DNA of 47,219 bases from a virus: IMG/VR virus record IMGVR_UViG_3300012228_000005, positions 1 to 47,219 of that record. One strand, 5' to 3'. Both the position numbers and the translations under genes were made by a program. The notes under the pieces were generated by a model, which ran no database searches, was not told where the DNA came from, and saw only the letters and a list, made by a program, of their open reading frames with translations. This document shows, in pieces, positions 2,376-47,219 of the stretch. Each line of letters opens with the position of its first letter. Positions within the stretch are counted from its first letter, which is position 1.

Positions 2376-2414
2376 AGCTCCAGCCCCTCTCTGCCGCCCG
2401 GAGGCGGACGGACT

Positions 2415-2790
2415 CACCCCCTCCAGACCCCCTCCTATCCTCCCCGTTGGGGAGGCTCTGAAAGAGGGGTGACCCCGCCGACGCCGCTTGATTCCCTACG
2501 GGCGTGGGCCGTGATCCATCAGGCCGTCAGATCGACCTGGTGGGCGCTCCGAATCCGGTGTGCTGACGCGGCCAGTGAGCGCGCCAGCAGCAACCTCGAG
2601 GGCCAGTCTCACGCATGAAGCGACCGGCATGGCCCTGAAAACCCGGGGCAACCCTTGCGAGACGCTCTCGCTTCGGTCACCGTGGAACGCACTGGCTTTC
2701 ATTCAGGCGCTGGTCTACCGCCGCCAAGTCGACCATGCTCGGGGCCCGACCTTTCCGCTTGCGGGAAGACCGGGCCCCGAGCTTTTCTTG
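2415..2790 (+). ncRNA. putative structured RNA, copy A (duplicated, inverted, at 31016-31376)
   Basis: The 442 bp between 2376 and 2817 hold no convincing gene. This element shares ordered blocks with the reverse complement of 31016-31376: CACCCCCTCC at the 5' end (2415-2424), a 16-nt block at 2595-2610, a 27-nt identical block at 2623-2649, a 25-nt block with one mismatch at 2704-2728, then a hairpin with a T-rich tail. AGGGCCA (2599-2605) pairs perfectly with TGGCCCT (2630-2636), and both arms are conserved in copy B. The 5' part can also fold (CCTCCCC with GGGGAGG around 2439-2455). Block spacings differ between copies by 23 and 4 nt, not multiples of three, which argues against a protein. 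Confidence 0.6.
2737..2789 (+). terminator. strong intrinsic terminator
   Basis: A perfect 12-bp stem, GCTCGGGGCCCG (2737-2748) pairing with CGGGCCCCGAGC (2771-2782), encloses a loop that has its own small stem, and is followed at once by TTTTCTT. It ends the putative RNA copy A and would also insulate the terminase-side genes from the next operon. Confidence 0.85.
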
Positions 2791-2817
2791 AGGACTGGCC
2801 TGTGATCTCCTTGGCGC

Positions 2818-3057
2818 ATGGAGCACCCCCACCCGTGCTGTGACCCTGGCTTCTGGATGGCGCTCGAAGCGCGCCTCTCCGGGATCGAGCGCACGCTCAT
2901 GGGCGGGCTCACGCCAGCCCAGGTGGCGCTCCTGAAGGCCGAGCTCGCGGCCCTCGCCGGAGAACTTCGCGGCTCTCGGATCCTGCTCGAGCTCGCCATC
3001 AAGAAGGCCAACCGTTCAACCCGCCGACCTGTCCCGAAAGGAAAGATCCCATCATGA
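2818..3057 (+). CDS. hypothetical protein, 79 aa
   Basis: A small helical protein starting with MEHPHPCCDPGFWMALEARL, followed by an Ala/Leu-rich amphipathic helix (LLKAELAALAGEL) and a basic tail. No family recognised. It is the first gene after the terminator at 2737-2789, so it probably begins a transcript; its stop overlaps the next start (ATGA). Confidence 0.55.
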   Translation: MEHPHPCCDPGFWMALEARLSGIERTLMGGLTPAQVALLKAELAALAGELRGSRILLELAIKKANRSTRRPVPKGKIPS

Positions 3058-3287
3058 CCAGCCCCCTCCTCTCCGTCCTCGCCGAGGAAATCACCCAGAC
3101 CCGTGGCGTGATGGCCTCGGCTACCGAGCTCATCAACGGCTTCGCCCAGCGCATCGCCGATGCCATCACCGCAGCGCTCGTGAACGGCGCCACCGAGGCT
3201 GAGCTCGAGCCCTTCCGACAGCTCGAGGTCGAGCTCGAGGAGAGCCGGAACGCTCTGGCCGCTGCTGTCGCCGCGAACCCGCGGTAA
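3054..3287 (+). CDS. hypothetical helical protein, 77 aa
   Basis: Begins in an ATGA overlap with the upstream gene and is almost entirely predicted helix, with heptad-like spacing (LEPFRQLEVELEESRNALAAAVA), so it may form a coiled coil or oligomer. The two-gene pair 2818-3287 ends at a hairpin. No family recognised. Confidence 0.6.
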   Translation: MTSPLLSVLAEEITQTRGVMASATELINGFAQRIADAITAALVNGATEAELEPFRQLEVELEESRNALAAAVAANPR

Positions 3288-3313
3288 ACAGCCGGGCAGG
3301 CCCTTTCCGCAAA

Positions 3314-3348
3314 GCGAGCGCGCGGTCAGACTGCGCGCTCGCTCGTTT
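3314..3348 (+). terminator. GC-rich hairpin, possible terminator
   Basis: GCGAGCGCGC (3314-3323) pairs perfectly with GCGCGCTCGC (3333-3342) around a 9-nt loop, followed by TCGTTTCC, a poor T-tract. It separates the 2818-3287 gene pair from the gene at 3381, which has its own strong ribosome site (GAAGGAG). It may act as an attenuator or a processing site. Confidence 0.55.
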
Positions 3349-3380
3349 CCTATCCCATGCCCTGAAGGAGATTCTGACCA

Positions 3381-3755
3381 ATGGCTCTAGAAAAGCTCTG
3401 CCTTGAGGCTCTCGTCAAGATGGACGACGGCCGAATCCGAGAAGCGTTCGAGCAAGCCCTGAAGCGTTGCGAGGACGACTGCCGAGACCGGCCGATGCTC
3501 AAGAAGGATCGGACCGTGACGTTGGAGGCGAAGATCGTGCCCGTCGCTGATGAGGAGGGCGCGCTAGTCGAGTGCCTCCTACAGCTCCAGGTGAAGGACC
3601 AGCGCCCGGTGCGCTCCTCCAAGGTCTACCACATGAGCGCGGCTCGTCAGGGCCTGTGGCTCAACGAGCTCTCGCCTGACGACGCACGTCAGATGACCAT
3701 CGACGGCCCCGAGCTCCAGGCTGTGCCCGAGAAGGAGGTGGCCGATGCTCGCTGA
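3381..3755 (+). CDS. hypothetical protein, 124 aa
   Basis: Preceded by GAAGGAG at a suitable distance. The protein has a helical N-terminal part (REAFEQALKRCEDDC), then beta-rich sequence (RTVTLEAKIVPVADEEGALVECLLQLQVK) and a SKVYHMS segment. I recognise it only as a type of small protein often found next to a larger beta-rich partner in phages; it overlaps the following gene by 11 bp, supporting a functional pair. No enzymatic motif seen. Confidence 0.65.
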   Translation: MALEKLCLEALVKMDDGRIREAFEQALKRCEDDCRDRPMLKKDRTVTLEAKIVPVADEEGALVECLLQLQVKDQRPVRSSKVYHMSAARQGLWLNELSPDDARQMTIDGPELQAVPEKEVADAR

Positions 3756-4515
3756 AGCCATCGCCAAGATCGTCTCGCTTGCCCCCAACATCGCCGAGCT
3801 CGAGGTGCTGCGCATTCCCGAGCTTCCGCGCAAGGTGTTCGTCCGCAGCCCGGGAGGCGAGGTCAGGGAGTTCGAGCGCGAGCCCACGCCACGCCACGCG
3901 AACATCGACAGCCTCGAGGATCTCATCGCAGCGCTCGTGGATCGGGCCATCGCCCAAGATCCGGAGGTGTACCACACCGCCAACGCCGTGATTGTCCTAC
4001 TCGATCGCACGCAACGACACGAGCAGATCGGCATGCCCCTGTTTTTCAGCCAGAGATTCTCCTGGCTCATGGGCACGGATTACCGGTCAGGCTCTCCGCG
4101 CGAGATCGTGAAAGCTCTCCAGCGCGGCCTTGGATCGTCCGCGCCCTTTCCGGTGGTGGACGCCATCCGGCGCGTCAACTTCACCCGCACGAACGCGGGC
4201 GCCTCAGTCGTCGAGCACGGCAAGGAGTCGCTCGGCCGTTCCGTGGAGGCTGTCGTCCAGCAGGCCGACAAGATCCCGGAGCGCTTCGTGGTGCGCGTCC
4301 CGGTCTACTCGAACCCGGGCCTCCAGGCCTTCCAGGCCGATGTCTGGATGGGCCTCTACCTCGACCTCGAGGGGCAAGCCATCGAGATCTGGCCCGAGCC
4401 CGACGCGATTCAGGCTGCCATCCAGACCGCCCAGGCTCGTCTCCACGAGGCCCTCGTGGCGGCCGAGTTCTGGCCCAACCCCGGGCCCGCACCGGTCTTC
4501 TACGGCACCCCCTGA
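3745..4515 (+). CDS. hypothetical protein, 256 aa (distantly DUF2303-like)
   Basis: The start overlaps the previous gene by 11 bp. It opens with a helix (MLAEAIAKIVSLAP), then strands carrying PRKVFVRSPGGEV, and ends with a helical segment rich in Ala (DAIQAAIQTAQARLHEALVAAEF). The overall order, and its pairing with the smaller upstream gene, recall YfdQ/DUF2303 phage proteins of unknown role, but I cannot confirm this by eye. It has no signal peptide, membrane segment or catalytic motif that I recognise. The 122 bp after it contain no gene. Confidence 0.6.
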   Translation: MLAEAIAKIVSLAPNIAELEVLRIPELPRKVFVRSPGGEVREFEREPTPRHANIDSLEDLIAALVDRAIAQDPEVYHTANAVIVLLDRTQRHEQIGMPLFFSQRFSWLMGTDYRSGSPREIVKALQRGLGSSAPFPVVDAIRRVNFTRTNAGASVVEHGKESLGRSVEAVVQQADKIPERFVVRVPVYSNPGLQAFQADVWMGLYLDLEGQAIEIWPEPDAIQAAIQTAQARLHEALVAAEFWPNPGPAPVFYGTP

Positions 4516-4637
4516 GCCATTGAAGCCCGAGGGCCCAGGGCGCAGACTGGCCCAGGCAATCTCCAAGGCCCGGCCGACTCTTCCACACCGGATACGGCTG
4601 GGCCCCTCACCTCCTCCCTCCCGCGGAAAGGTCCGCC

Positions 4638-4949
4638 ATGGCACACGAGAAGAACTGGGTTCCAGGGCCACCGACGATGAAGAAGAACCTCCCCGGCATC
4701 AAGATTCCGAAGAGCGCCGAAGGCACCTCGTTCCGGCGCAACGCCGGAGGGAAGCCGTCCACCGTGGGGGGCGGCACGATCAAGAAGAGCGGCGCGCTCT
4801 CCTACGGGAATGGCAAGCCCCGCTCGAGCTCCGGCGGCGCACGCGGCTCGACCCGCCACTTCGGCGAGTCGGTGGGCAACTCGGGCGGGCCCGGCTGGCG
4901 CGGCCCGAGCGGGCCCATGAGCTCGATGGGCTTCCGCGAGAAGGCGTAG
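4638..4949 (+). CDS. small basic Gly/Ser-rich protein, 103 aa
   Basis: Low-complexity, rich in Gly, Ser, Lys and Arg (RSSSGGARGSTRHFG), probably disordered. It lies directly upstream of the portal gene. Small basic proteins in this place are sometimes minor head components or DNA-binding proteins, but no family is recognised here. Confidence 0.6.
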   Translation: MAHEKNWVPGPPTMKKNLPGIKIPKSAEGTSFRRNAGGKPSTVGGGTIKKSGALSYGNGKPRSSSGGARGSTRHFGESVGNSGGPGWRGPSGPMSSMGFREKA

Positions 4950-29668: not shown

Positions 29669-30696
29669 GCACCACGAAACAGCCCGCCACCAAAGATCCT
29701 GCGCCCCGCACGCTCGCGACCGTGAGCGGCGGGCTCAACGCCTGGCTCTTGCAACAGCGCACCGAGCTCGCGCGTGCACTCCCGCGCATGCTCGAGCCCG
29801 ATCAATTCATCCGGATCGCCCTGACCACGGTCAAGCAGGACGAGTACCTGATGGAGGCTGACCCGATCTCCTTCATGGCGGCCGTCTTCGAGGCCGCTTC
29901 CGCCGGTCTCCTGATCGATGGGACCCTCGGGCACGCCTACCTGGTCTCGTTCTACAGCAAGAAGCGGGGCTGCCGGCTCGTGCAGCTCATCCCTGGCTAC
30001 AAGGGCCTGATGGAGCTCGCCCGGCGCTCGGGCGAGATCGCCAAGATCGAGGCGCGGGTCGTCCGCGCTGGGGACCGCTTTCGCTACGCCTACGGCATCC
30101 ACCAGGTGCTCGAGCACACCCCCACGGACTCGGACGACACGCTCGAGCGCTGGACGCACGTCTACGCGATTGCCTGGTTCAAGGACCAGAACACGCCCCC
30201 TCAGTTCGAGGTGATGACGTACAAGGCCGTGATGGCGATCAAGAAGCGCTCCGCCAGCGTCGTGGCTGGACGCTCGAGCCCCTGGGACACCGACGAGATC
30301 CCCATGGCTCAGAAGACCGCCATCCGCAGGCTGATGAGGCTCCTGCCCCTCTCGACCAGCGATCAGCGCATCGTCGAGAAGGACGAGGCCTTCGATGCCG
30401 GGATCCGGGAAGCTGAGTTCGACATGCGCGCTGCCGCGCCCTCGACCGTGGAGGAGCTCTCCACGCCTCGCCAGGCGCCTGCTGGCCCTCTGGATGAGCT
30501 GAGCGGCGTCGAGAAGGACGCCCATCCCACGGGCGAGCCTATTGCGTCTGGAGAAGAGCGCGCCCCCCCGGTCTCAGGCAAGCCAGGGGCCCCTGGCCCT
30601 GGGGCTGGGGCGGGCGGTTCTTCTACCTGGGACCACGAGACCATGGGCGACCCCCCGCCCGACCTCGCCCCGAAGAAGGGGAAGGCGAGCATCTGA
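29665..30696 (+). CDS. recT: RecT-family single-strand annealing protein
   Basis: About 343 residues from the ATG at 29665, which overlaps the HNH stop; an in-frame ATG at 29650 would add five residues. RecT hallmarks: LARALPRMLEPDQFIRIALT, the LLIDGTLGHAYLVSFYSKK segment, LIPGYKGLMELARRSG (the conserved GYKGL motif) and the late MAQKTAIRRLMRLLPLS. RecT coats the 3' tail made by RecE and anneals it to complementary DNA. The C-terminal 80 residues are Pro/Gly/Ala-rich and likely disordered. A hairpin beyond the gene may terminate the operon. Confidence 0.88.
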   Translation: MSTTKQPATKDPAPRTLATVSGGLNAWLLQQRTELARALPRMLEPDQFIRIALTTVKQDEYLMEADPISFMAAVFEAASAGLLIDGTLGHAYLVSFYSKKRGCRLVQLIPGYKGLMELARRSGEIAKIEARVVRAGDRFRYAYGIHQVLEHTPTDSDDTLERWTHVYAIAWFKDQNTPPQFEVMTYKAVMAIKKRSASVVAGRSSPWDTDEIPMAQKTAIRRLMRLLPLSTSDQRIVEKDEAFDAGIREAEFDMRAAAPSTVEELSTPRQAPAGPLDELSGVEKDAHPTGEPIASGEERAPPVSGKPGAPGPGAGAGGSSTWDHETMGDPPPDLAPKKGKASI

Positions 30697-31058: not shown

Positions 31059-31376
31059 GGTCTGCTTGGCGGCGGTAGACCTGCGCCTGTGAACAAGGCC
31101 GACGCCACGGTGGTCGATGGAGCGCGAACGCGCAAGACCGCCCCGGGTTTTCAGGGCCATGCCGGTGAACTTCAGGGTTTCCGCCTAGGGAGCCCTGTGC
31201 AGAGACTGGCCCTCGAGACGATCGCTTGCGCGGTGGCCTTCCGCGCCGGCCGCTGCGTAGGTGTGCTTCCGGGCTAGGCGAAAGCCGACCCCGGTTGTTC
31301 GGGCGGACAGCGACACGAACACGAGGCCCGGGATGAGCCCATTCTCGACCCTCCAATCAGCGGAGGGGAGGGGGTG
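31016..31376 (-). ncRNA. putative structured RNA, copy B (inverted relative to copy A)
   Basis: This part of the 739-bp gene-free stretch 30697-31435 matches copy A (2415-2790) in the opposite orientation. Read on the minus strand, blocks come in the same order: CACCCCCTCC-type start near 31376, a 16-nt identical block (31202-31217), a 27-nt identical block (31140-31166), a 25-nt block with one mismatch (31065-31089), then a hairpin (31016-31058). The 7-bp pair AGGGCCA/TGGCCCT is preserved although the sequence between the arms is 23 nt longer than in A. Conserved stems with variable loops suggest RNA. No promoter was identified. Confidence 0.58.
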
Positions 31377-31435
31377 GTCTGAGCTAGGAGCGGAATGCAG
31401 CATTCAGGGAACTCTGGGCCCTCTGGGGATTTCTC

Positions 31436-31660
31436 ATGGGTAGACGTAGGAAGAAGAAGAAGCAGTCTGGACCGGCGTGCGCCAAATGCGGCGCTGTGTG
31501 CGCCTGGGAGCGCACGTCCTCGGGGCGGTGGTCCCTGATGGACCGGGGCGGTGGGCCGCACTGGAAGACGTGTCAGGCCACCCTAGAGCTTCGCCATGCG
31601 ATGGGTCGCCAGCGCGCGCTGGAACTCGACGGCGTAAGCAGAATCAGGCGTGAACCATGA
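31436..31660 (+). CDS. small zinc-ribbon-like protein, 74 aa
   Basis: Begins MGRRRKKKKQSGPACAKCGA: a very basic N-terminus then a CxxC, with a later HWKTC that can complete the site. It resembles the gene at 1337, which also has CSKCGAP and a distal His/Cys group; both may belong to one small family. Its stop overlaps the next start (ATGA). Confidence 0.6.
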   Translation: MGRRRKKKKQSGPACAKCGAVCAWERTSSGRWSLMDRGGGPHWKTCQATLELRHAMGRQRALELDGVSRIRREP

Positions 31661-32040: not shown

Positions 32041-32453
32041 AGCTCGAGGACATCCGGGACGCCGCTCTCCGAGAGTGGGTGACCGACTACGTCGCGAAGA
32101 AGCTGACCGAAGCGAAGAAGAGCGCGGGGAAGGCGGAGCAGCTCCGCTCGGTGTGGAGGCGGAACACCGAGGCCCACTGGGCCGCCTGGCGCGAGCTCAT
32201 GACGTTGCGCCCACTGGCGCGCGAGCGCTTCAGTCAGACCGAGGTCGACGTCGCCGTCCAGCGGAGGCTCGCTTCACTCCCAAGGACCGGAGCCGGCTAC
32301 GCGGCCCCCTACAGCTACGGGCTCGAGGTCGCCGCCCTGCGCGAGCTCCTCGGGCCACAAGCTGAGCCGCCCCCGCCTGCGCCAGTCAAGAAACCAGGGC
32401 GGACCGCCGAGCTCGACTTCGGGGCGCCAGCTCGAAGCTCCTTCGACGACTGA
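32037..32453 (+). CDS. hypothetical helical protein, 138 aa
   Basis: Starts at GTG in a GTGA overlap. It is helical and Lys/Arg-rich at the N-terminus (YVAKKLTEAKKSAGKAEQLR), with a Pro-rich C-terminal stretch ending LDFGAPARSSFDD. A Phe-containing acidic C-terminal tip recalls tails that bind SSB or the sliding clamp, but this is speculation. Part of the 31436-32453 coupled group. Confidence 0.55.
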   Translation: MKLEDIRDAALREWVTDYVAKKLTEAKKSAGKAEQLRSVWRRNTEAHWAAWRELMTLRPLARERFSQTEVDVAVQRRLASLPRTGAGYAAPYSYGLEVAALRELLGPQAEPPPPAPVKKPGRTAELDFGAPARSSFDD

Positions 32454-32461
32454 AGACCCCC

Positions 32462-32490
32462 TTGCGGCCCTGAGGCCCCCCGGTAGGCTC
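32462..32490 (+). promoter_or_regulatory. candidate phage promoter (TTGCGG, 16 nt, TAGGCT)
   Basis: TTGCGG (32462-32467) and TAGGCT (32484-32489) are 16 nt apart; TAGGCT lies in the recurring GTAGGCTC octamer. It ends 8 nt before the ATG at 32498, so the transcript may be leaderless; no good ribosome site is present upstream of that gene. Confidence 0.45.
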
Positions 32491-32497
32491 TAAAAGC

Positions 32498-33007
32498 ATG
32501 ACCAAGGCTAAGGCTAACGATCCTGGGGATCCCATCATCTTCATCTGGCTCCTGCCGGATGTGGTCGCGTTCAAGAGCGAGGGCTCCAAGGTGAGCAAGC
32601 TCTTCCTGATGCGCGCGTGCGCGGTGATGGTTCGCGTCGTGGCCCAGCTTCGCCACCAGGAGAGCGCGCCTGAAGGCAAGCGCCTGAAGAAGCGCGACGT
32701 GGGCAACATCGCGACCGAACTCTTTAGTGATGCGGCGGAAGAGATCCCGCTGACCACGCAGGCGCAAACGCACCGTGCGGACGTGGCGCTCGCGCCTTAT
32801 GGAGACGGAGCGGTAAACGCCTGGATCTCTCCACTCGCGACACGAGCCGAGCTCGAGCGCGCGACGCGCTTCATGCTGCGCGCGGCCTTCCGAGCGATGC
32901 TCGAGGCGCGCGTGGCGCTGAAGCCCAACGAGTTCCTGTGCTGGCTGATCGAGCTCTCGAGCGATACCGCGGTGGGCGTCGTAGCGCCATCGGAGAGCCC
33001 TGAGTGA
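32498..33007 (+). CDS. hypothetical protein, 169 aa
   Basis: Begins MTKAKANDPGDPIIFIWLLP, 8 nt after a candidate -10 element. The rest is mostly helical (RATRFMLRAAFRAMLEARVA). No family recognised. Located before RusA in a coupled run of genes; the stop overlaps the next start (GTGA). Confidence 0.58.
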   Translation: MTKAKANDPGDPIIFIWLLPDVVAFKSEGSKVSKLFLMRACAVMVRVVAQLRHQESAPEGKRLKKRDVGNIATELFSDAAEEIPLTTQAQTHRADVALAPYGDGAVNAWISPLATRAELERATRFMLRAAFRAMLEARVALKPNEFLCWLIELSSDTAVGVVAPSESPE

Positions 33008-33192
33008 AGGTCAGGGAAGACGCTCCGCACGCGCAGGCGATGAAGACGCTGCTCAAGCTGGCAGAGGAGGCGAACCCGCTGCCCAAGGGGACGCGCGTGA
33101 CGAACGAGGCGCGCTTCTACGCTGAGGCGCGGCGCTGGGTGCCGTTCCTGGTTGGGCACTACCTCGAGAGCGTGAAGGCGGCGAAGCCGTGA
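33004..33192 (+). CDS. hypothetical protein, 62 aa
   Basis: Starts at GTG in a GTGA overlap and ends in another with RusA. Helical, with HAQAMKTLLKLAEEAN and RFYAEARRWVPFLVGHYLES. Unknown function; the tight coupling suggests it is expressed with the resolvase. Confidence 0.5.
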   Translation: MKVREDAPHAQAMKTLLKLAEEANPLPKGTRVTNEARFYAEARRWVPFLVGHYLESVKAAKP

Positions 33193-33893
33193 TGTCGATT
33201 GAGTTCACGGTCTTTGGCCGCCCCGCGACAGCGGGCAACAAGACCGCGTTTCCGTTCAAGCGCAAGGATGGCTCACTGGGCGTGCGCGTGACCGAAGGCC
33301 GCCGGCCGGAAGCGCGCGACCACGCAGCCGCCTGGCGCGTGGCAGTGCAAACCGCGGGCGCTCATGCGATGAGCGGAGCGGGCCTCTTCGCAGGCCCGCT
33401 CGAGCTCCGCATCCAGATCGTGCGCACGCGGCCCAAGAGCCACTACGGAGCGAGCGGCGCTTTGAAGGCGAGCGCGCCCGTCTATCCGACCACCAGGCCC
33501 GACCTCACGAAGTACGAGCGCGCCATCGAGGACGCCTTGACGGGCATCGTGTGGTGCGACGACTCGCAGGTCGTGAGGAAGCACACAGGGAAGCTCTATG
33601 GCGACTCCGACAGGACCACGGTTACGGTCACCCTCATCGACTCCGGCCAGACCCCAGCGCAGCCAAGCGCAACCGCTTCCGAGAGTTCATCGGGTGGGGG
33701 CGCCGTGCGACTCGGCACCCCGGGCGGGTTGGTTACGGGTCTGGCCGGTCTTACTAACTCGGCGGCTTGCCCCCAAACCGCACAGGACGCGCTACAGGAG
33801 GCCCTTGGCTGGAATGACCCCGAGGTCAAGTTAGGGAAGATCAACGCCCCAGCGGGCAGCCCACGCAGCGCCAAGGCCAGCGAGCAAGCATGA
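33189..33893 (+). CDS. rusA: RusA-type Holliday junction resolvase
   Basis: Starts at GTG 33189 (GTGA overlap) or ATG 33192. The core fits RusA: N-terminal strand IEFTVFGRPATAGNK, strand LELRIQIVRTRP, then RPDLTKYERAIEDALTG with WCDDSQVV. Asp105, Asp115 and Asp124-Asp125 match the acidic positions that hold metal in this family. RusA resolves or debranches junctions formed during replication and recombination, a natural partner of RecE/RecT. The family is about 120-140 residues; here there is a C-terminal extension of about 90 residues, low in complexity (QPSATASESSSGGGAVRL), which I cannot assign. Confidence 0.83.
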   Translation: MMSIEFTVFGRPATAGNKTAFPFKRKDGSLGVRVTEGRRPEARDHAAAWRVAVQTAGAHAMSGAGLFAGPLELRIQIVRTRPKSHYGASGALKASAPVYPTTRPDLTKYERAIEDALTGIVWCDDSQVVRKHTGKLYGDSDRTTVTVTLIDSGQTPAQPSATASESSSGGGAVRLGTPGGLVTGLAGLTNSAACPQTAQDALQEALGWNDPEVKLGKINAPAGSPRSAKASEQA

Positions 33894-37239: not shown

Positions 37240-37941
37240 CTAGCCCTTCTTGTGCGCGCTCTTCGCCTGCTTCGCCTCGCGCATCCGCTGCATGTGCTCA
37301 CGCCTCGGGTTCGGAGGGATGACGACCTCGCTCTGGGGGAGCCTCTTCATTCCCTGCGGTAGCGGTCCAGGTGCGCCCTCGAGCTCGCCAGGGTCACCCC
37401 ACTTCGGATCCCAGCGCTCGTGCCCATCGGTCTCCTTCTCCCCGGCGTGCGCGGCCTTGATGCGCTCATGTTCGTTGATCTTCCCGAGCTTGGTGCGCTC
37501 CTTGAGCGTGCGCGCGGCTGCCTGAGCAGAGCGCGGGGCCGGGAGATCGTCGTCACCCTCCTCGTGGTCGACCGTGGGCGTGGCGCCCGTCTTCATGGGG
37601 TCGGGGAGCCTGGGAAGCCTCCGCACCTGGCGCGCCTCGAGCTTCCGGAGAGCGCGTTGCCATTGGCTCTTGGCGTACTCGATGCCCTTCCTCAGGGGTT
37701 CCGTCCGGCCAGGCGAGCCCTTCTCGAGCCCCTTCACGTACGCCTCGAGCAGAGGCCACAGCATCTTCTGTTTCGCGATCGGGTCATCCTCGAACCAGAA
37801 GGCATCTGGGAACGAATAGCGCGCGTAGTTCCGAAGGTGGGGCATCTCCTTTTCGTGGATGCCAGCGAAGGCCATCTCGCTGCGGGAGAGGACCTTGGTG
37901 ATCGGGGTCTGGACCGCTCGCATCCGCTGGGTCATTCGCAT
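37240..37941 (-). CDS. hypothetical protein on minus strand, 233 aa
   Basis: N-terminal part has conserved-looking HLRNYARYSFPDAFWFEDD and a helical LLEAYVKGLEKGSPGRTEPL; the C-terminal half is charged and Lys/Pro-rich (DPKWGDPGELEGAPGPLPQG) and likely disordered. No family recognised. It is the first gene of the two-gene minus-strand unit, divergent from 38041 across a 99-bp spacer that must hold promoters for both directions. Confidence 0.55.
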   Translation of the reverse strand: MRMTQRMRAVQTPITKVLSRSEMAFAGIHEKEMPHLRNYARYSFPDAFWFEDDPIAKQKMLWPLLEAYVKGLEKGSPGRTEPLRKGIEYAKSQWQRALRKLEARQVRRLPRLPDPMKTGATPTVDHEEGDDDLPAPRSAQAAARTLKERTKLGKINEHERIKAAHAGEKETDGHERWDPKWGDPGELEGAPGPLPQGMKRLPQSEVVIPPNPRREHMQRMREAKQAKSAHKKG

Positions 37942-38040
37942 GATGGAAACAGGCTAGCCTCGGGCAAGCAGGATTTGCAGACCAAGGTAGAATCGTGGGT
38001 GCCAGCGCTAGTGTTGGCCCCTCTGACCAAGGAGACCCTG
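37942..38040. promoter_or_regulatory. divergent intergenic region
   Basis: Separates the minus-strand pair from the plus-strand gene at 38041. Contains TAGAAT near 37990 and TAGTGT near 38011 as possible -10 elements for the plus strand, and CTGACCAAGGAG as ribosome site. No clear operator palindrome is visible. Confidence 0.35.
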
Positions 38041-38427
38041 ATGAGCGACGCCCAAGAGTCCTACGAGCGTGCCTACGCGCAGCACCGTGAGACCCACGGG
38101 CCGCATGGCGCGAGACCTGAGCCCGCTCTTGACGCGAGGCTTGAGCGCATCGGCAAGCTGGCCGACCTAGGTGCGCGCGTGCTCGAGATCCTGGCCGAGC
38201 GCTCTGCTCTGCGCGTGTCCAGGCAGCACGGTGGCGTTCTAGAGCTCCATCGCAAGCTGATGGGGGAAGGACCCGCGTACCTGATGACCGAAGGCGAGAT
38301 GCGGATGTTCCAGGATGACGAAGCGGACCGCGTGGTGCTGCAAGCGCAGACTGTAGACATCATCGAGCACGCAGCCCGCTCGCTCGGGCTGCTCGACAAC
38401 GCACCTACCAGCGGAGACGCACCGTGA
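38041..38427 (+). CDS. hypothetical protein, 128 aa
   Basis: Start ATG 38041 is preceded by CTGACCAAGGAG. Helical, with MSDAQESYERAYAQHRETHG, a Leu-rich segment LADLGARVLEILAERSALRV and ADRVVLQAQTVDIIEHAARS. No family recognised. First of a four-gene coupled run (38041-39702). Confidence 0.6.
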   Translation: MSDAQESYERAYAQHRETHGPHGARPEPALDARLERIGKLADLGARVLEILAERSALRVSRQHGGVLELHRKLMGEGPAYLMTEGEMRMFQDDEADRVVLQAQTVDIIEHAARSLGLLDNAPTSGDAP

Positions 38428-38744
38428 CCGCGATCTCCCGCGCCGCTCTCGCCGCCGTGCTCTCCGGCCCGCGCGATGAACGCTACTGGGCGATTCGCTG
38501 GCAGTACATGCACGGCGACGGGTTCTTCGACGCGCTGCTCCGCGCTGCGGAGCACGCCGACCCGGAGAACCTCGCGCGCATCGAGCTCGGATTCCCGGAG
38601 ATCGCTCGCGCCGTGCGCTCCTGGAAGAACGTGGAAGGCTGGGCGCAGGAGGTCGAACGGTGGGCCGAGTCGCTCGTGCCCAAAGACGGCCTGTCTCGTC
38701 GCGAGCCCCACTGCGAGCCGGGGGGAGAGGTCTTCAAGCCGTGA
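38424..38744 (+). CDS. hypothetical protein, 106 aa
   Basis: Starts at GTG in a GTGA overlap. Contains an early hydrophobic Ala-rich stretch and aromatic RYWAIRWQYMHGDGFFDALL, with a conserved-looking RSWKNVEGWAQEVERWAESL. Function unknown. Stop overlaps the lipoprotein start (GTGA). Confidence 0.55.
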   Translation: MTAISRAALAAVLSGPRDERYWAIRWQYMHGDGFFDALLRAAEHADPENLARIELGFPEIARAVRSWKNVEGWAQEVERWAESLVPKDGLSRREPHCEPGGEVFKP

Positions 38745-39547
38745 AGTTCCTCGCCTCCTGCGCCCTGCTCTCCGCTTGCAGCCAGCAGCTCACCTACTCG
38801 GGCTCGGACCTGGGTGCGGTCACGCACATCCGCGAGACCGATGGAACCGCGGTCCTCATGGTCTCGAGCGCTGAGCCAGGCGGTCGCCTCTCGCCAGGCG
38901 AGCCCGTCCAGGTGCTCTACCTGGACGCTGGCCGGGCGCTGATCGTCCAGGAGCCCCAGGTGCTCGAGGTCGACGGCGAGGCGCTGGCCACGCCACCGGA
39001 GGCCGCTGAGGCCCTCCTGTGCTTCGAGCCAGCGAGCCCGCCCGCCGGCGGAGGCACCTTCGGGTACGGCGGCGGCTCGAGCTCTCCACGGGGCTGGCCG
39101 TATCGCCTGGTCACCCTGGACGGCCAGGCTCGCCCCTGGAGCCGCTTCGTGGACTTCACCGCGCGTGCACGCTCACGCACCCAGGCTGACGCCCTCGCCC
39201 TGCTCTTCCTCAAGGCTCCATGGCAGCAGGCCCCGCCCCAGGGCATCACCGTGGGCGCCTACGCCCTCGCCAGGGCGGAGCAGCAAGGTCTCTACCTGCT
39301 CATGCTCTCGCTCGATGGGCCGACCTACGCCGCCGTGCAGCTCAACTCCTGGAGCCATCAGGGCCTCCCAGGCATGCGCCTGGGCTACACGGCGCCGTGG
39401 TGGTGCGTTATGGCCTACATCCCCTGGCCAGGCTTCCAGTACCGCCCGCGCCTCGGAGGCTCGAATCACATCGAGTTCCACCTCCTGAATGGCACGGGCA
39501 CGCATCACGAGGGCGTCCTACAGCTCGAGCTCGGGCCTTCACGATGA
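38741..39547 (+). CDS. lipoprotein, 268 aa
   Basis: The GTG at 38741 was chosen since it overlaps the upstream stop and yields a short lipoprotein signal (MKFLASCALLSAC, lipobox LSAC). The mature part is beta-rich (TDGTAVLMVSSAEPGG; GTHHEGVLQLELGPSR) with a Gly/Ser-rich hinge (GGGTFGYGGGSSSPRGWP). It would be lipid-anchored. Phage lipoproteins can block superinfection or take part in lysis, but nothing specific is recognised. Its signal sequence is unusually short, so cleavage is uncertain. Confidence 0.55.
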   Translation: MKFLASCALLSACSQQLTYSGSDLGAVTHIRETDGTAVLMVSSAEPGGRLSPGEPVQVLYLDAGRALIVQEPQVLEVDGEALATPPEAAEALLCFEPASPPAGGGTFGYGGGSSSPRGWPYRLVTLDGQARPWSRFVDFTARARSRTQADALALLFLKAPWQQAPPQGITVGAYALARAEQQGLYLLMLSLDGPTYAAVQLNSWSHQGLPGMRLGYTAPWWCVMAYIPWPGFQYRPRLGGSNHIEFHLLNGTGTHHEGVLQLELGPSR

Positions 39548-39702
39548 AGCGCCACAGCGGCCCCCGCATCGAGATCGAGGGCGTCCGCATCGTCGACACC
39601 CTCAAGGCCTGGTGGCTCGAATGGTGGGAACGGCGACCCGGCTCCGACTGGCGTGTCCGACACCTCCTTCTGGCATGGAAGGACGACCACGGGCCCGCCT
39701 GA
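39544..39702 (+). CDS. Trp-rich small protein, 52 aa
   Basis: Starts in an ATGA overlap with the lipoprotein gene. The short chain contains LKAWWLEWWERRPGSDWRVR, seven Trp in 52 residues in all; it could be a membrane-active or interfacial peptide. No family recognised. It ends the coupled run. Confidence 0.5.
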   Translation: MKRHSGPRIEIEGVRIVDTLKAWWLEWWERRPGSDWRVRHLLLAWKDDHGPA

Positions 39703-39842
39703 TTGCTGATGGGTGAAGGGGACGCACTCCCCGAGAGGCGGGCGCCCCGCTGAGGCCATGGACGGGCTTCGGTGTGGCGCCCGCTGCTTCTTCTGAAGGG
39801 GAGCGCCAGCAGGGCCAGGCCCCCCATCGGCACCGGAGCCGC

Positions 39843-39872
39843 TGTCAGAGCTGTCAGTGTCAGAACTGTCAG
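39843..39872 (+). repeat. four TGTCAG iterons
   Basis: TGTCAG occurs at 39843, 39852, 39858 and 39867, spaced by 9, 6 and 9 bp, outside any gene. Short regular repeats of this type bind initiators or regulators. With only four copies of six bases chance cannot be ruled out. Confidence 0.5.
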
Positions 39873-39909
39873 AGCAGGAACCCATGGCGGCGGAAGCCTC
39901 GTTCGGTGA

Positions 39910-39938
39910 TTGCTTCCCCCGCGCCCCCGAGTAGGCTC
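39910..39938 (+). promoter_or_regulatory. candidate phage promoter (TTGCTT, 16 nt, TAGGCT)
   Basis: TTGCTT (39910-39915) and TAGGCT (39932-39937), within GTAGGCTC (39931-39938), have the same 16-nt spacing as the candidate at 32462. It points into the non-coding region, so it could drive an RNA or the genes from 40319. Confidence 0.4.
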
Positions 39939-40318
39939 GGCGTCCGACGGGTCGAGCTGTCCCCACGGCTCGCTCCGCCATCGGTTGGCGCCGAAGCATG
40001 TGCATCCATGCGGCTACCCTGGTACTCGAGGCCCCCTGCAGGCGACGGTCTGCGGTGAGTGGAGGCGCACCAGTCTCTCTGGACGGTGCGAATCCCTGGG
40101 CAGGGCCGCACGCTCGAGCTCGAGCGGCGAGCTGACTGAGCTCCTCGCAGAAGCGGGAACTCGAAGGGGCCTGAAAACCCCCGGCGCCGACCGGCTTTAG
40201 GACAACGCGCGCCCGTGGGCCGGCCTTTGCGGCTTGACGCGCGGCGGTTCTGGAGTGTACGCCTGGCGCACCAGGCCGCCTGGTTCCGCGCGGCGTGAAC
40301 GCGAAGCGTCGTGGCCTC

Positions 40319-45758: not shown

Positions 45759-45936
45759 CCGGGAGCTCGTGCACGGGCTCGAGCTTCTCGAGCTCGCCTT
45801 CCGCTGGGAGCAGGAGCTCCTCGAGGAATGTAGTGAGCGCGTGTACCAGCATGAGCGCGCGCTACTGCCAAGGCAGAGGGAAGCGGCTGAGAAGGTGATA
45901 GGCAGGCGCACCGCGGCCGAACACGGCGAGGAATGA
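45718..45936 (+). CDS. small helical protein between terS and terL, 72 aa
   Basis: From the ATG at 45718 (the frame is open to a TTG at 45649), overlapping terS by 41 bp. Almost wholly coiled-coil-like helix (LVHGLELLELAFRWEQELLE). Its stop overlaps the terL start (ATGA). Function unknown, but the overlaps on both sides suggest it belongs to the packaging unit. Confidence 0.5.
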   Translation: MQTRRAESREFQSDRELVHGLELLELAFRWEQELLEECSERVYQHERALLPRQREAAEKVIGRRTAAEHGEE

Positions 45937-47219
45937 AGGCCGCCCCGCCGCCCTCCGAGAGGTATCACGCGCACGGAGCAGCGGTGGTGCTGGCGAGTTG
46001 GCTGGAAGGGAAGGAGATCCCGCCCGAGGAGTGCATGATCGTCGGGCCCGCTGGATGCGTTGCCGGCGAGACGGAGCTCTGGGATCCGATCGCTGGCGAG
46101 GGCCGGCGCATCGACGAGCTTCAGCGTGCGCAAGAGCGACCGTGGGTGTCCACGCTTCACGGCCCGGTGCGCGCGCACGCGCCTTTTGTCAAGGGCTTCG
46201 CGAGGCTCTACCGCGTCGAGCTCGCCGGAGGCGCGTCTTGCCTGGCAACGGGCGACCACCTTTTCCTTTCCCGCGCGGGGTGGATCCGTACCGATTCGCT
46301 CTCGCCGGGCATGGAACTCCTGTCGTCGTCGCTCGAAGGTGCTCCCCGTTCGTCGAGAACAACCGCAGATTCGACAGCCGGTTGTCCCAGCTCTTGCCGT
46401 TCCGGTGATCGACGACCTCTCGTCGCGTCAGGAAGCGCCCGAGCTTCTTCTCCATCAGGAGCCGATGCTCGCGCACGTAGCCATGCCGATTTGCCTGAGG
46501 GTGGTCCGGCATCAGCACGAGCCAATAGCCGTCCTTGTCCTGCATGCGGCCTCCACGCCACGCCGGATTCAAATACCCAGCGACCGGCCGCGCCATCGGG
46601 TGTGCTCCAGGAGGCGCACGCCGCCAGCCTGGACGTGGGAGCGCGTGGCGCTCTACGTACTCACGGACGATCCGCTTGTTGGTCCCGACGCGACGGCCGA
46701 TCGCCTCCAGGGTGGCGCCTTCTCGCGCCATCCGCGCTACAAGCTCGTGATTACGCGCGCACGCGGCTGTTGCCCGAGGAGGCATCGGTCCTGTGGGACA
46801 GGGTACGGTCCGTCCGTTTCGAGCGCAACGACTTCTACTATGACCTCCACGTCCCGGGAGCCGAGCACTATCTTGGTGACGGCCTGTGGTCGCACAACAC
46901 CGGAAAGTCGTTAGGAGTTGGCTGTTTTCTCTGGGGCTTCCTCGATCGCTGGTCGAACGCGAAGGTGCTCGTGCTGCGCAAGACGCGCGTCTCGCTCAAC
47001 GACTCCTTCCTCGACACCTTCGAGACCGAGGTGCTCGGCTTCGGGCACTACGCCATCGGAGACCGCACGCGCGAGCACCGCTCGAGGTACGTGCACCAGG
47101 ACGGCGGCGAGCTCGTGCTGGGTGGCATGGACCAGGGCCGGCGGCTCTTCTCGACGCAGTACCACATCGTCTACGTCAACGAGATGACCGAGCTCACCGA
47201 AGCTGAGTGGATGTCGCTC
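45933..47219 (+). CDS. terL: terminase large subunit, N-terminal part with in-frame intein (continues at 1-1236)
   Basis: The frame is open from ATG 45933 to the window end and continues at position 1. The N-extein is 41 residues and ends GPAG; the C-extein begins TGKS at 46899. Joined, GPAGTGKS is a perfect Walker A P-loop. Next comes the ATPase core (VLVLRKTRVSLNDSFLDTF). Between lies the 281-residue intein. Without splicing the P-loop does not exist, so packaging ATPase activity must depend on intein removal. Precursor 799 residues, mature 518. Confidence 0.92.
   Translation, partial: MKAAPPPSERYHAHGAAVVLASWLEGKEIPPEECMIVGPAGCVAGETELWDPIAGEGRRIDELQRAQERPWVSTLHGPVRAHAPFVKGFARLYRVELAGGASCLATGDHLFLSRAGWIRTDSLSPGMELLSSSLEGAPRSSRTTADSTAGCPSSCRSGDRRPLVASGSARASSPSGADARARSHADLPEGGPASARANSRPCPACGLHATPDSNTQRPAAPSGVLQEAHAASLDVGARGALRTHGRSACWSRRDGRSPPGWRLLAPSALQARDYARTRLLPEEASVLWDRVRSVRFERNDFYYDLHVPGAEHYLGDGLWSHNTGKSLGVGCFLWGFLDRWSNAKVLVLRKTRVSLNDSFLDTFETEVLGFGHYAIGDRTREHRSRYVHQDGGELVLGGMDQGRRLFSTQYHIVYVNEMTELTEAEWMSL
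46056..46898 (+). other. intein in TerL Walker A motif
   Basis: 281 residues in frame with TerL. Block A: Cys1 in CVAGETELWDP. Block B: TGDH with Thr65 and His68 (CLATGDHLFLSRAGW). Block F: YYDLHVPGAEHYLGDG. Block G: SHN with penultimate His and final Asn, followed by Thr as the +1 extein nucleophile. All splicing residues are present, so it is probably active. Residues about 90-240 in the sense frame are Ser/Arg/Pro/Ala-rich and have no endonuclease motif; that DNA is the antisense HNH gene. The Hint parts alone (about 90 plus 40 residues) would be a normal mini-intein. Confidence 0.9.
46189..46785 (-). CDS. HNH homing endonuclease encoded antisense inside the TerL intein
   Basis: A 198-residue minus-strand protein. 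Residues 12-45 form a helix-turn-helix (LVARMAREGATLEAIGRRVG); then YLNPAWRGGR (71-80), GYVREHRLLMEKKLGRFL (102-119), VVDHRNGKSWDNRLSNL (124-140) and EH (148-149). This is the standard HNH_3-type homing nuclease layout, His127 and His149 being the likely catalytic/metal residues. The HNH core lies opposite intein residues 95-134. The last 40 residues (Arg/Gly/Lys-rich) lie antisense to intein block B and may be an added tail. Codons end mostly in G/C on this strand. No promoter was found. It could cut the intein-free terL allele; that is inference. Confidence 0.88.
   Translation of the reverse strand: MPPRATAACARNHELVARMAREGATLEAIGRRVGTNKRIVREYVERHALPRPGWRRAPPGAHPMARPVAGYLNPAWRGGRMQDKDGYWLVLMPDHPQANRHGYVREHRLLMEKKLGRFLTRREVVDHRNGKSWDNRLSNLRLFSTNGEHLRATTTGVPCPARANRYGSTPRGKGKGGRPLPGKTRLRRARRGRASRSP
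47097..47219. repeat. terminal direct repeat, right copy
   Basis: Identical to 1-123; see the left copy. The overlap allows the window to be closed into a circle with no frame change in terL. Confidence 0.95.

Follow-up and report, generated by a model that had tools for sequence, protein, structure and literature searches.

A diverged, oppositely oriented pair of noncoding sequences in the genome of an uncultured tailed phage

Two stretches of one phage genome, at positions 2415-2790 and 31376-31016, had been read from the sequence alone as two copies of a structured RNA of 376 and 361 nt, and they raise the question of how much of them is duplicated, whether the duplicated part gives rise to an RNA, and, if so, from which strand. 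The window analysed here is the whole virus record of 47,219 bases. Because its ends carry an exact 123-nt direct repeat the genome is circularly closed, and the source is an uncultured tailed phage with a circular genome of 47.2 kb. The G+C content of the window is about 67%. The terminase was recognised by NCBIfam TIGR01547 (E 6.5e-8, below the cut-off) together with tblastn matches to annotated phage terminases, and a podovirus-type major capsid protein by NF033394 (E 6.5e-10, below the cut-off). Further genes in the window encode exonuclease VIII, RecT, RusA, and a DNA methyltransferase, and no tRNA was found in it. According to codon usage almost all genes are located on the plus strand. 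Searching for the host with the major capsid profile in five sets of 9, 396, 395, 398, and 396 genomes resulted in one marginal match (E 9.9e-4 over 82 residues); the last four sets were sampled from the phyla of four of the first nine genomes. Copy 1 is found on the late-gene side of the map on the plus strand, between the open reading frames (ORFs) 1809-2375 and 2818-3057. Copy 2 is on the minus strand in a gap of 739 nt between the RecT gene, which ends at 30696, and a short plus-strand ORF read as starting at 31436.

The genome contains two diverged copies, in opposite orientation, of a noncoding sequence of about 140 nt. This core comprises 134 nt in copy 1 (2595-2728, plus strand) and 153 nt in copy 2 (31217-31065, minus strand), which can be aligned to each other and contain the blocks A, B, CACCGTGG, and C in the same order. 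Block A (2595-2610 and 31217-31202) is identical at all 16 positions, block B (2623-2649 and 31166-31140) at all 27, block CACCGTGG (2678-2685 and 31112-31105), which had not been mentioned before, at all eight, and block C (2704-2728 and 31089-31065) at 24 of 25. In addition, a C-rich 10-mer (2415-2424 and 31376-31367) is common to both copies. The sequence-only reading was therefore right about the position, length (10, 16, 27, and 25 nt with one mismatch), order, and opposite orientation of every block that it had named. The spacer between A and B is 12 nt long in copy 1 and 35 nt in copy 2, so that the pairing AGGGCCA/TGGCCCT is indeed retained across a length change of 23 nt, and the distance between B and C differs by 4 nt. 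The B-to-C spacer is alignable in its own right (score reached by 4 of 1000 shuffles). In a self-BLAST the core gives 78% identity over 114 nt (E=1.7e-14), which makes the pair the strongest repeat of the genome after the terminal repeat, the next one having an E of 1.7e-11 (42.2 versus 44.3 kb). The core alignment score of 52.5 was reached by none of 1000 mononucleotide shuffles, the best of which scored 16.5.

Beyond the core no homology could be demonstrated. The 5' stretches (2415-2594, plus strand, and 31376-31218 in copy 2) share only the C-rich 10-mer: their local score of 14.0 was reached by 59 of 1000 shuffles and by 868 of 1000 when the 10-mer was omitted, and their global alignment by 19 of 1000. 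A long 3' hairpin (2737-2782 in copy 1, 31058-31016 in copy 2) ends each copy at the same position with a different sequence, as had been noticed, and the two hairpin parts are not more alike than shuffled sequences (967 of 1000 reached their similarity). The same is true for the flanks (354 and 633 of 1000). The demonstrable homology thus amounts to 134 and 153 nt instead of the 376 and 361 nt claimed earlier; the duplication holds for the core, and the longer extent is not supported.

Both copies are noncoding, which had also been proposed. The spacing differences of 23 nt (A-B) and 4 nt (B-C) are not divisible by three, and the reading frames through the blocks differ between the copies. 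No ORF overlapping the copies has a codon-usage signal above the score limit, and on the minus strand around copy 2 codon usage gives no coding signal either. The overlapping ORFs tested have no convincing match in Pfam or PHROG (ORF 31274-31561 has one chance-level Pfam match with E 0.033, below the cut-off), and tblastn of two of them against plasmids gave E-values of 0.9 or worse, with the two matches inspected taken as chance. A protein gene or a remnant of one is not supported, given the frame-breaking spacing, the differing frames, and the missing convincing Pfam or PHROG match.

The element is accessory and an orphan, without a homolog in the Rfam, phage, plasmid, IMG/VR, and genome searches. 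None of the 4227 families of Rfam 15 reaches its gathering score in the window, and for both copies only chance-level matches appear at E-values up to 10, in agreement with the earlier statement that the blocks belong to no known RNA class. HDV-like ribozymes and group I and II introns were dropped on this result. BLASTN against 50,697 phage and 72,556 plasmid records gave only E-values of 0.5 or worse. In IMG/VR, neither the exact 19-mer of block B nor the combination of A and B was found. A loose pattern of B and C had one match there, which was rejected because it is inside a frame resembling a helix-turn-helix gene; the B and C pattern had no match in genomes of 84,980 species, one per species. 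A 17-mer of block B is present at 91 places in genome contigs and three in IMG/VR (96 places examined including the two of the window itself), none with A or C nearby, and a 17-mer of block C at six places in IMG/VR, in surroundings that contain neither A nor B. Since exact motifs are required in the scans of IMG/VR and of the genomes, distant relatives would be missed. A covariance model from both copies (204 positions, seven pairs) scores the copies at 233 and 199 bits and the next best site of the window at 11.4. Such a search had been suggested as a check of the RNA family; run on the window and three related contigs, G1, G2, and G3, found by protein search, it places only the two copies above background. 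Its best scores in the relatives are 13.1 in G1 and G2 (E 0.11) and 15.8 in G3 (E 0.027), and these weaker matches were assigned to the background, being short and surrounded by dozens of similar scores.

G1 comprises 10.2 kb and matches the window with 98% identity from position 2999 onwards, which leaves copy 1 outside its coverage. G2 is 47,066 bases long and has an exact terminal repeat of 123 nt, and G3 is 47,004 bases long and has an imperfect one of 227 nt. Both of these near-complete relatives lack the element: the best block matches cover 41 and 43 of 68 positions compared to 67-68 of 68 in the copies, and the covariance model run without filters did not find it either. Where the window has copy 1, the homologues of 1809-2375 and 4638-4949 are separated by only about 60 bases in G2. 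Copy 1 therefore belongs to an accessory block, since the stretch of about 2376-4637 is missing there in G2 and G3. This stretch consists of copy 1 and four small genes, three of which have homologues in the early regions of G2 and G3: those of the window genes at 3381-4515 are in the early region of G2 (32358-33431), and that of 3054-3287 is at 31498 in G3. The stretch looks like a relocated accessory module, with whose genes the element may have moved. Within the same module, 3381-3755 weakly matches a PHROG family named 'replication terminator' (E 0.012). The large terminase gene (45933-47219, continuing at 124-1236 of the circular genome) is interrupted in its ATP-binding (Walker A) motif, where an intein with a length of about 280 residues is inserted. 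The intein is supported by Pfam PF14890 slightly below the cut-off (E 3.4e-7) and by TIGR01443 above it. It is absent in G2, where the frame resumes at the next base (44445/44446), and the match in G3 spans the whole stretch. The sole convincing minus-strand gene of the window, 37240-37941, is kept in G2 and G3, overlaps the plus-strand ORF 37420-38427, and has no family match.

If the element is an RNA, its folding should be considered on both strands, and we will call forward the strand of the sequence-only reading (plus for copy 1, minus for copy 2) and reverse the opposite one. Against dinucleotide shuffles, the full stretch of copy 1 has z-scores of -3.44 (forward) and -3.45 (reverse), and that of copy 2 of -2.09 (forward) and -4.10 (reverse, reached by 0 of 100 shuffles). 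These good values are not reproduced in the cores without the end hairpins, which fold no better than the shuffles (copy 1 core -1.45 forward and +0.10 reverse, copy 2 core +0.31 forward and -1.20 reverse). The consensus folding by RNAalifold, based on a block-anchored MAFFT alignment of the two copies, was compared to 200 column shuffles. It is slightly better than these for the full stretches (reached by 8 forward and 6 reverse) and shows no excess for the cores (89 forward and 30 reverse). Aligning and folding both copies simultaneously with a home-made program (120 column shuffles per test) gave no excess in five of six tests: in forward and reverse order, the values were reached by 16 and 39 shuffles for the full stretch, 82 and 55 for the core, and 61 for the forward 5' part, the exception being the reverse 5' part with 4 of 120. 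The claim of a structured RNA family therefore goes too far, given that the cores fold like shuffled sequences, the joint folds are without excess in five of six tests, and only two copies are available. Known from one genome, the element cannot yet be called an RNA family, and its status as a structured RNA is unproven.

The best single evidence for pairing is suggestive and fits the reverse strand. It is a candidate stem of 2647-2653 with 2675-2681 (copy 2: 31142-31136 with 31115-31109), read on the minus strand of copy 1, in which all seven pairs form in both copies and two pairs have been changed on both sides. On the reverse strand all 14 cells are paired, compared to the forward strand with C/A mismatches in three of the 14. 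A stem statistic anchored on CACCGTGG was reached by 1628 of 2000 shuffles forward and 10 of 2000 reverse, and by 22 of 2000 when either strand was allowed. This statistic was devised with the stem already known, and the form of the stem that scores best in it is a register-shifted one of 6 bp. The stem itself was picked after inspection among about five segments. An earlier statistic, whose position tolerance was too narrow, gave 410 of 1000 forward and 178 of 1000 reverse.

Terminator-like hairpins point to the forward strand. Our own scan for hairpins with a T-tail found 106 sites in the window, ranked by kcal/mol. The 3' hairpin of copy 1 at about 2736-2783 (plus strand), with the T-tail TTTTCTT extending to 2794, resembles an intrinsic terminator and ranks third (-39.9 kcal/mol). 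That of copy 2 at 31058-31016 (minus strand; inner stem 31052-31021) has the weak T-tail TGTTCCTT and ranks 17th (-23.6 kcal/mol). A second terminator-like hairpin behind copy 2 (30901-30866, minus strand, tail TCTTCTTG) ranks fifth (-30.0 kcal/mol) and separates copy 2 from the convergent RecT gene. Two such sites on the minus strand of the 739-nt gap compare to 0.13 expected (Poisson P=0.008), the expectation being based on the density of sites at least this strong, 17 over both strands of the window. In the reverse orientation no hairpin with a T-tail is found at the 3' side of either copy among the best 30 of the 106 sites. Since both copies have T-tailed hairpins at their 3' sides and copy 2 has another one behind it, the forward strand is more likely, by about two to one. 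A stricter terminator tool flagged none of the three hairpins, and a promoter scan, restricted to the sigma-70 type that may not be that of the host, found no promoter-like site in either region.

We tentatively interpret the copies as two paralogous, accessory small-RNA genes of one phage, read in the forward direction, and assign a probability of roughly 0.4 to this. The frame-breaking spacing between conserved blocks, the missing coding signal on the minus strand around copy 2, the T-tailed hairpins, and the forward z-scores of both full stretches are consistent with it. Against it are the cores folding like shuffled sequences, the joint folding, the compensatory stem and the better folding of copy 2 on the other strand, the missing promoter-like sites, the result of the stricter terminator scan, and the evolutionary support from two copies only, with no homolog in relatives or databases. 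Copy 1 would be transcribed on the plus strand within the late-gene side and end at its own 3' hairpin. For copy 2, transcription would start on the minus strand at a putative promoter of its own, located in the interval that separates the RecT gene from the early genes, and would stop at its 3' hairpin, with the hairpin about 115 nt further on as a possible second stop. On either strand, one of the two copies is directed against its neighbours, with no convincing genes downstream of it, so that a purely cis-acting leader would fit at most one of them. Therefore, the RNA is probably trans-acting. Its invariant blocks may be contact sites for a common partner such as a host mRNA, an RNA chaperone, or RNA polymerase, and the variable hairpins could serve as spacers and terminators. 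Antisense pairing of the blocks with the rest of the phage extends to 10-11 nt at most, taken as chance by judgement without a null model. It is doubtful whether a phage RNA of a new class is made from an early and a late locus in opposite orientation and so supplies the same core at both stages of infection.

An RNA could also be made from the reverse strand, with copy 2 preceding the early genes on the plus strand, copy 1 opposing the late genes on the minus strand, and the long hairpins then at the 5' ends. The stem that is complete only there, with its two double changes and the related statistic, the folding of copy 2, and the joint fold of the 5' part all argue for this. However, no terminator-like site follows at the 3' sides among the best-ranked sites, the core folds are not significant, and the stem was selected by inspection, so that we regard this as unlikely. 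In a quite different explanation, the copies are sites at the DNA level, for example paired replication, recombination, or packaging sites, in which the blocks would be sites for protein binding or single-strand initiation. Opposite orientation and independence of gene direction would be natural for DNA sites, as would blocks conserved without a proven RNA structure. However, G2 and G3, which have most structural genes in common with this phage, lack the element, which excludes it as a core site of replication or packaging in this group, and the block spacing is not constant. DNA sites therefore also seem rather improbable.

Even less probable is a decayed or miniature mobile element, or a gene remnant, that was inserted twice long ago and kept its blocks by chance. 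The accessory nature of the element and the absence of the surrounding stretch in G2 and G3 would fit, and copy 1 is open in one frame (ORF 2560-2805, 81 codons). However, no protein family matches convincingly, the spacing breaks the frame, no terminal repeats are visible by eye at the core ends, and perfect blocks of 16 and 27 nt beside stretches of background similarity are unlike neutral decay. The copies could, in turn, be cis-acting processive antiterminators or operon-end elements like the put RNAs of phage HK022, but we consider this the least probable of all. The presence of two similar, oppositely oriented copies in a single phage genome would be in line with such elements, and the putL and putR transcripts of HK022 diverge as well. 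However, whichever strand is chosen, one copy lacks genes behind it on that strand according to codon usage, and in the forward orientation a terminator-like hairpin and not an operon follows directly. The core is also about twice as long as the put elements of about 70 nt (PMC9378689).

The elements putL and putR are a sequence-related pair with two stem-loops each, located in early-operon leaders with an early promoter each and acting on their own transcript (PMC9378689). They come closest as a precedent for a phage genome that contains two similar RNA elements. The element here resembles them in being two sequence-related elements of one phage and differs in its core of 134-153 nt, its unproven structure, and the one copy lacking downstream genes on its strand. 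No leader of an operon is evident, there being no convincing minus-strand genes downstream of copy 2, nor genes downstream of copy 1 if it is reversed. With the small regulatory RNAs encoded by phages (PMC12197685) it would share being a noncoding phage transcript, here only predicted and with a predicted terminator, and it differs from them in forming a diverged pair within one genome. GOLLD and ROOL (PMC12286853) are also phage noncoding RNAs without known function, which are larger, have elaborate structures supported by covariation, and are often found near tRNA islands. The candidate RNA described here is smaller, without an Rfam match, and in a window without tRNA. Searches of the open-licence PMC literature listed no description of a pair of this kind. 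If the preferred small-RNA genes are transcribed, they provide a noncoding RNA without a match in the libraries searched, which one uncultured phage lineage carries as two diverged copies. They would then be a clean case for testing what makes a phage retain both. If they are not, the presence of a second copy and of a terminal hairpin does not yet count as evidence of RNA structure at a G+C content of about 67%.

Other conserved or repeated sites were noticed in the window and in G3. In G3, a cluster of direct repeats extends over 38549-39919, with 58 bp repeated exactly and others at 69-85% identity. The conservation of a site of 47 bp at 39988-40034 of the window, without an assigned gene, amounts to 89% identity with G2 and about 80% with G3 and exceeds that of its surroundings; the site is possibly an origin or operator. 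Another 48 bp at 1293-1340 are far more conserved than their surroundings, with 96% identity in G2 (94-141), and 30 bp of these also match the other end of G2, inside its terminal repeat.
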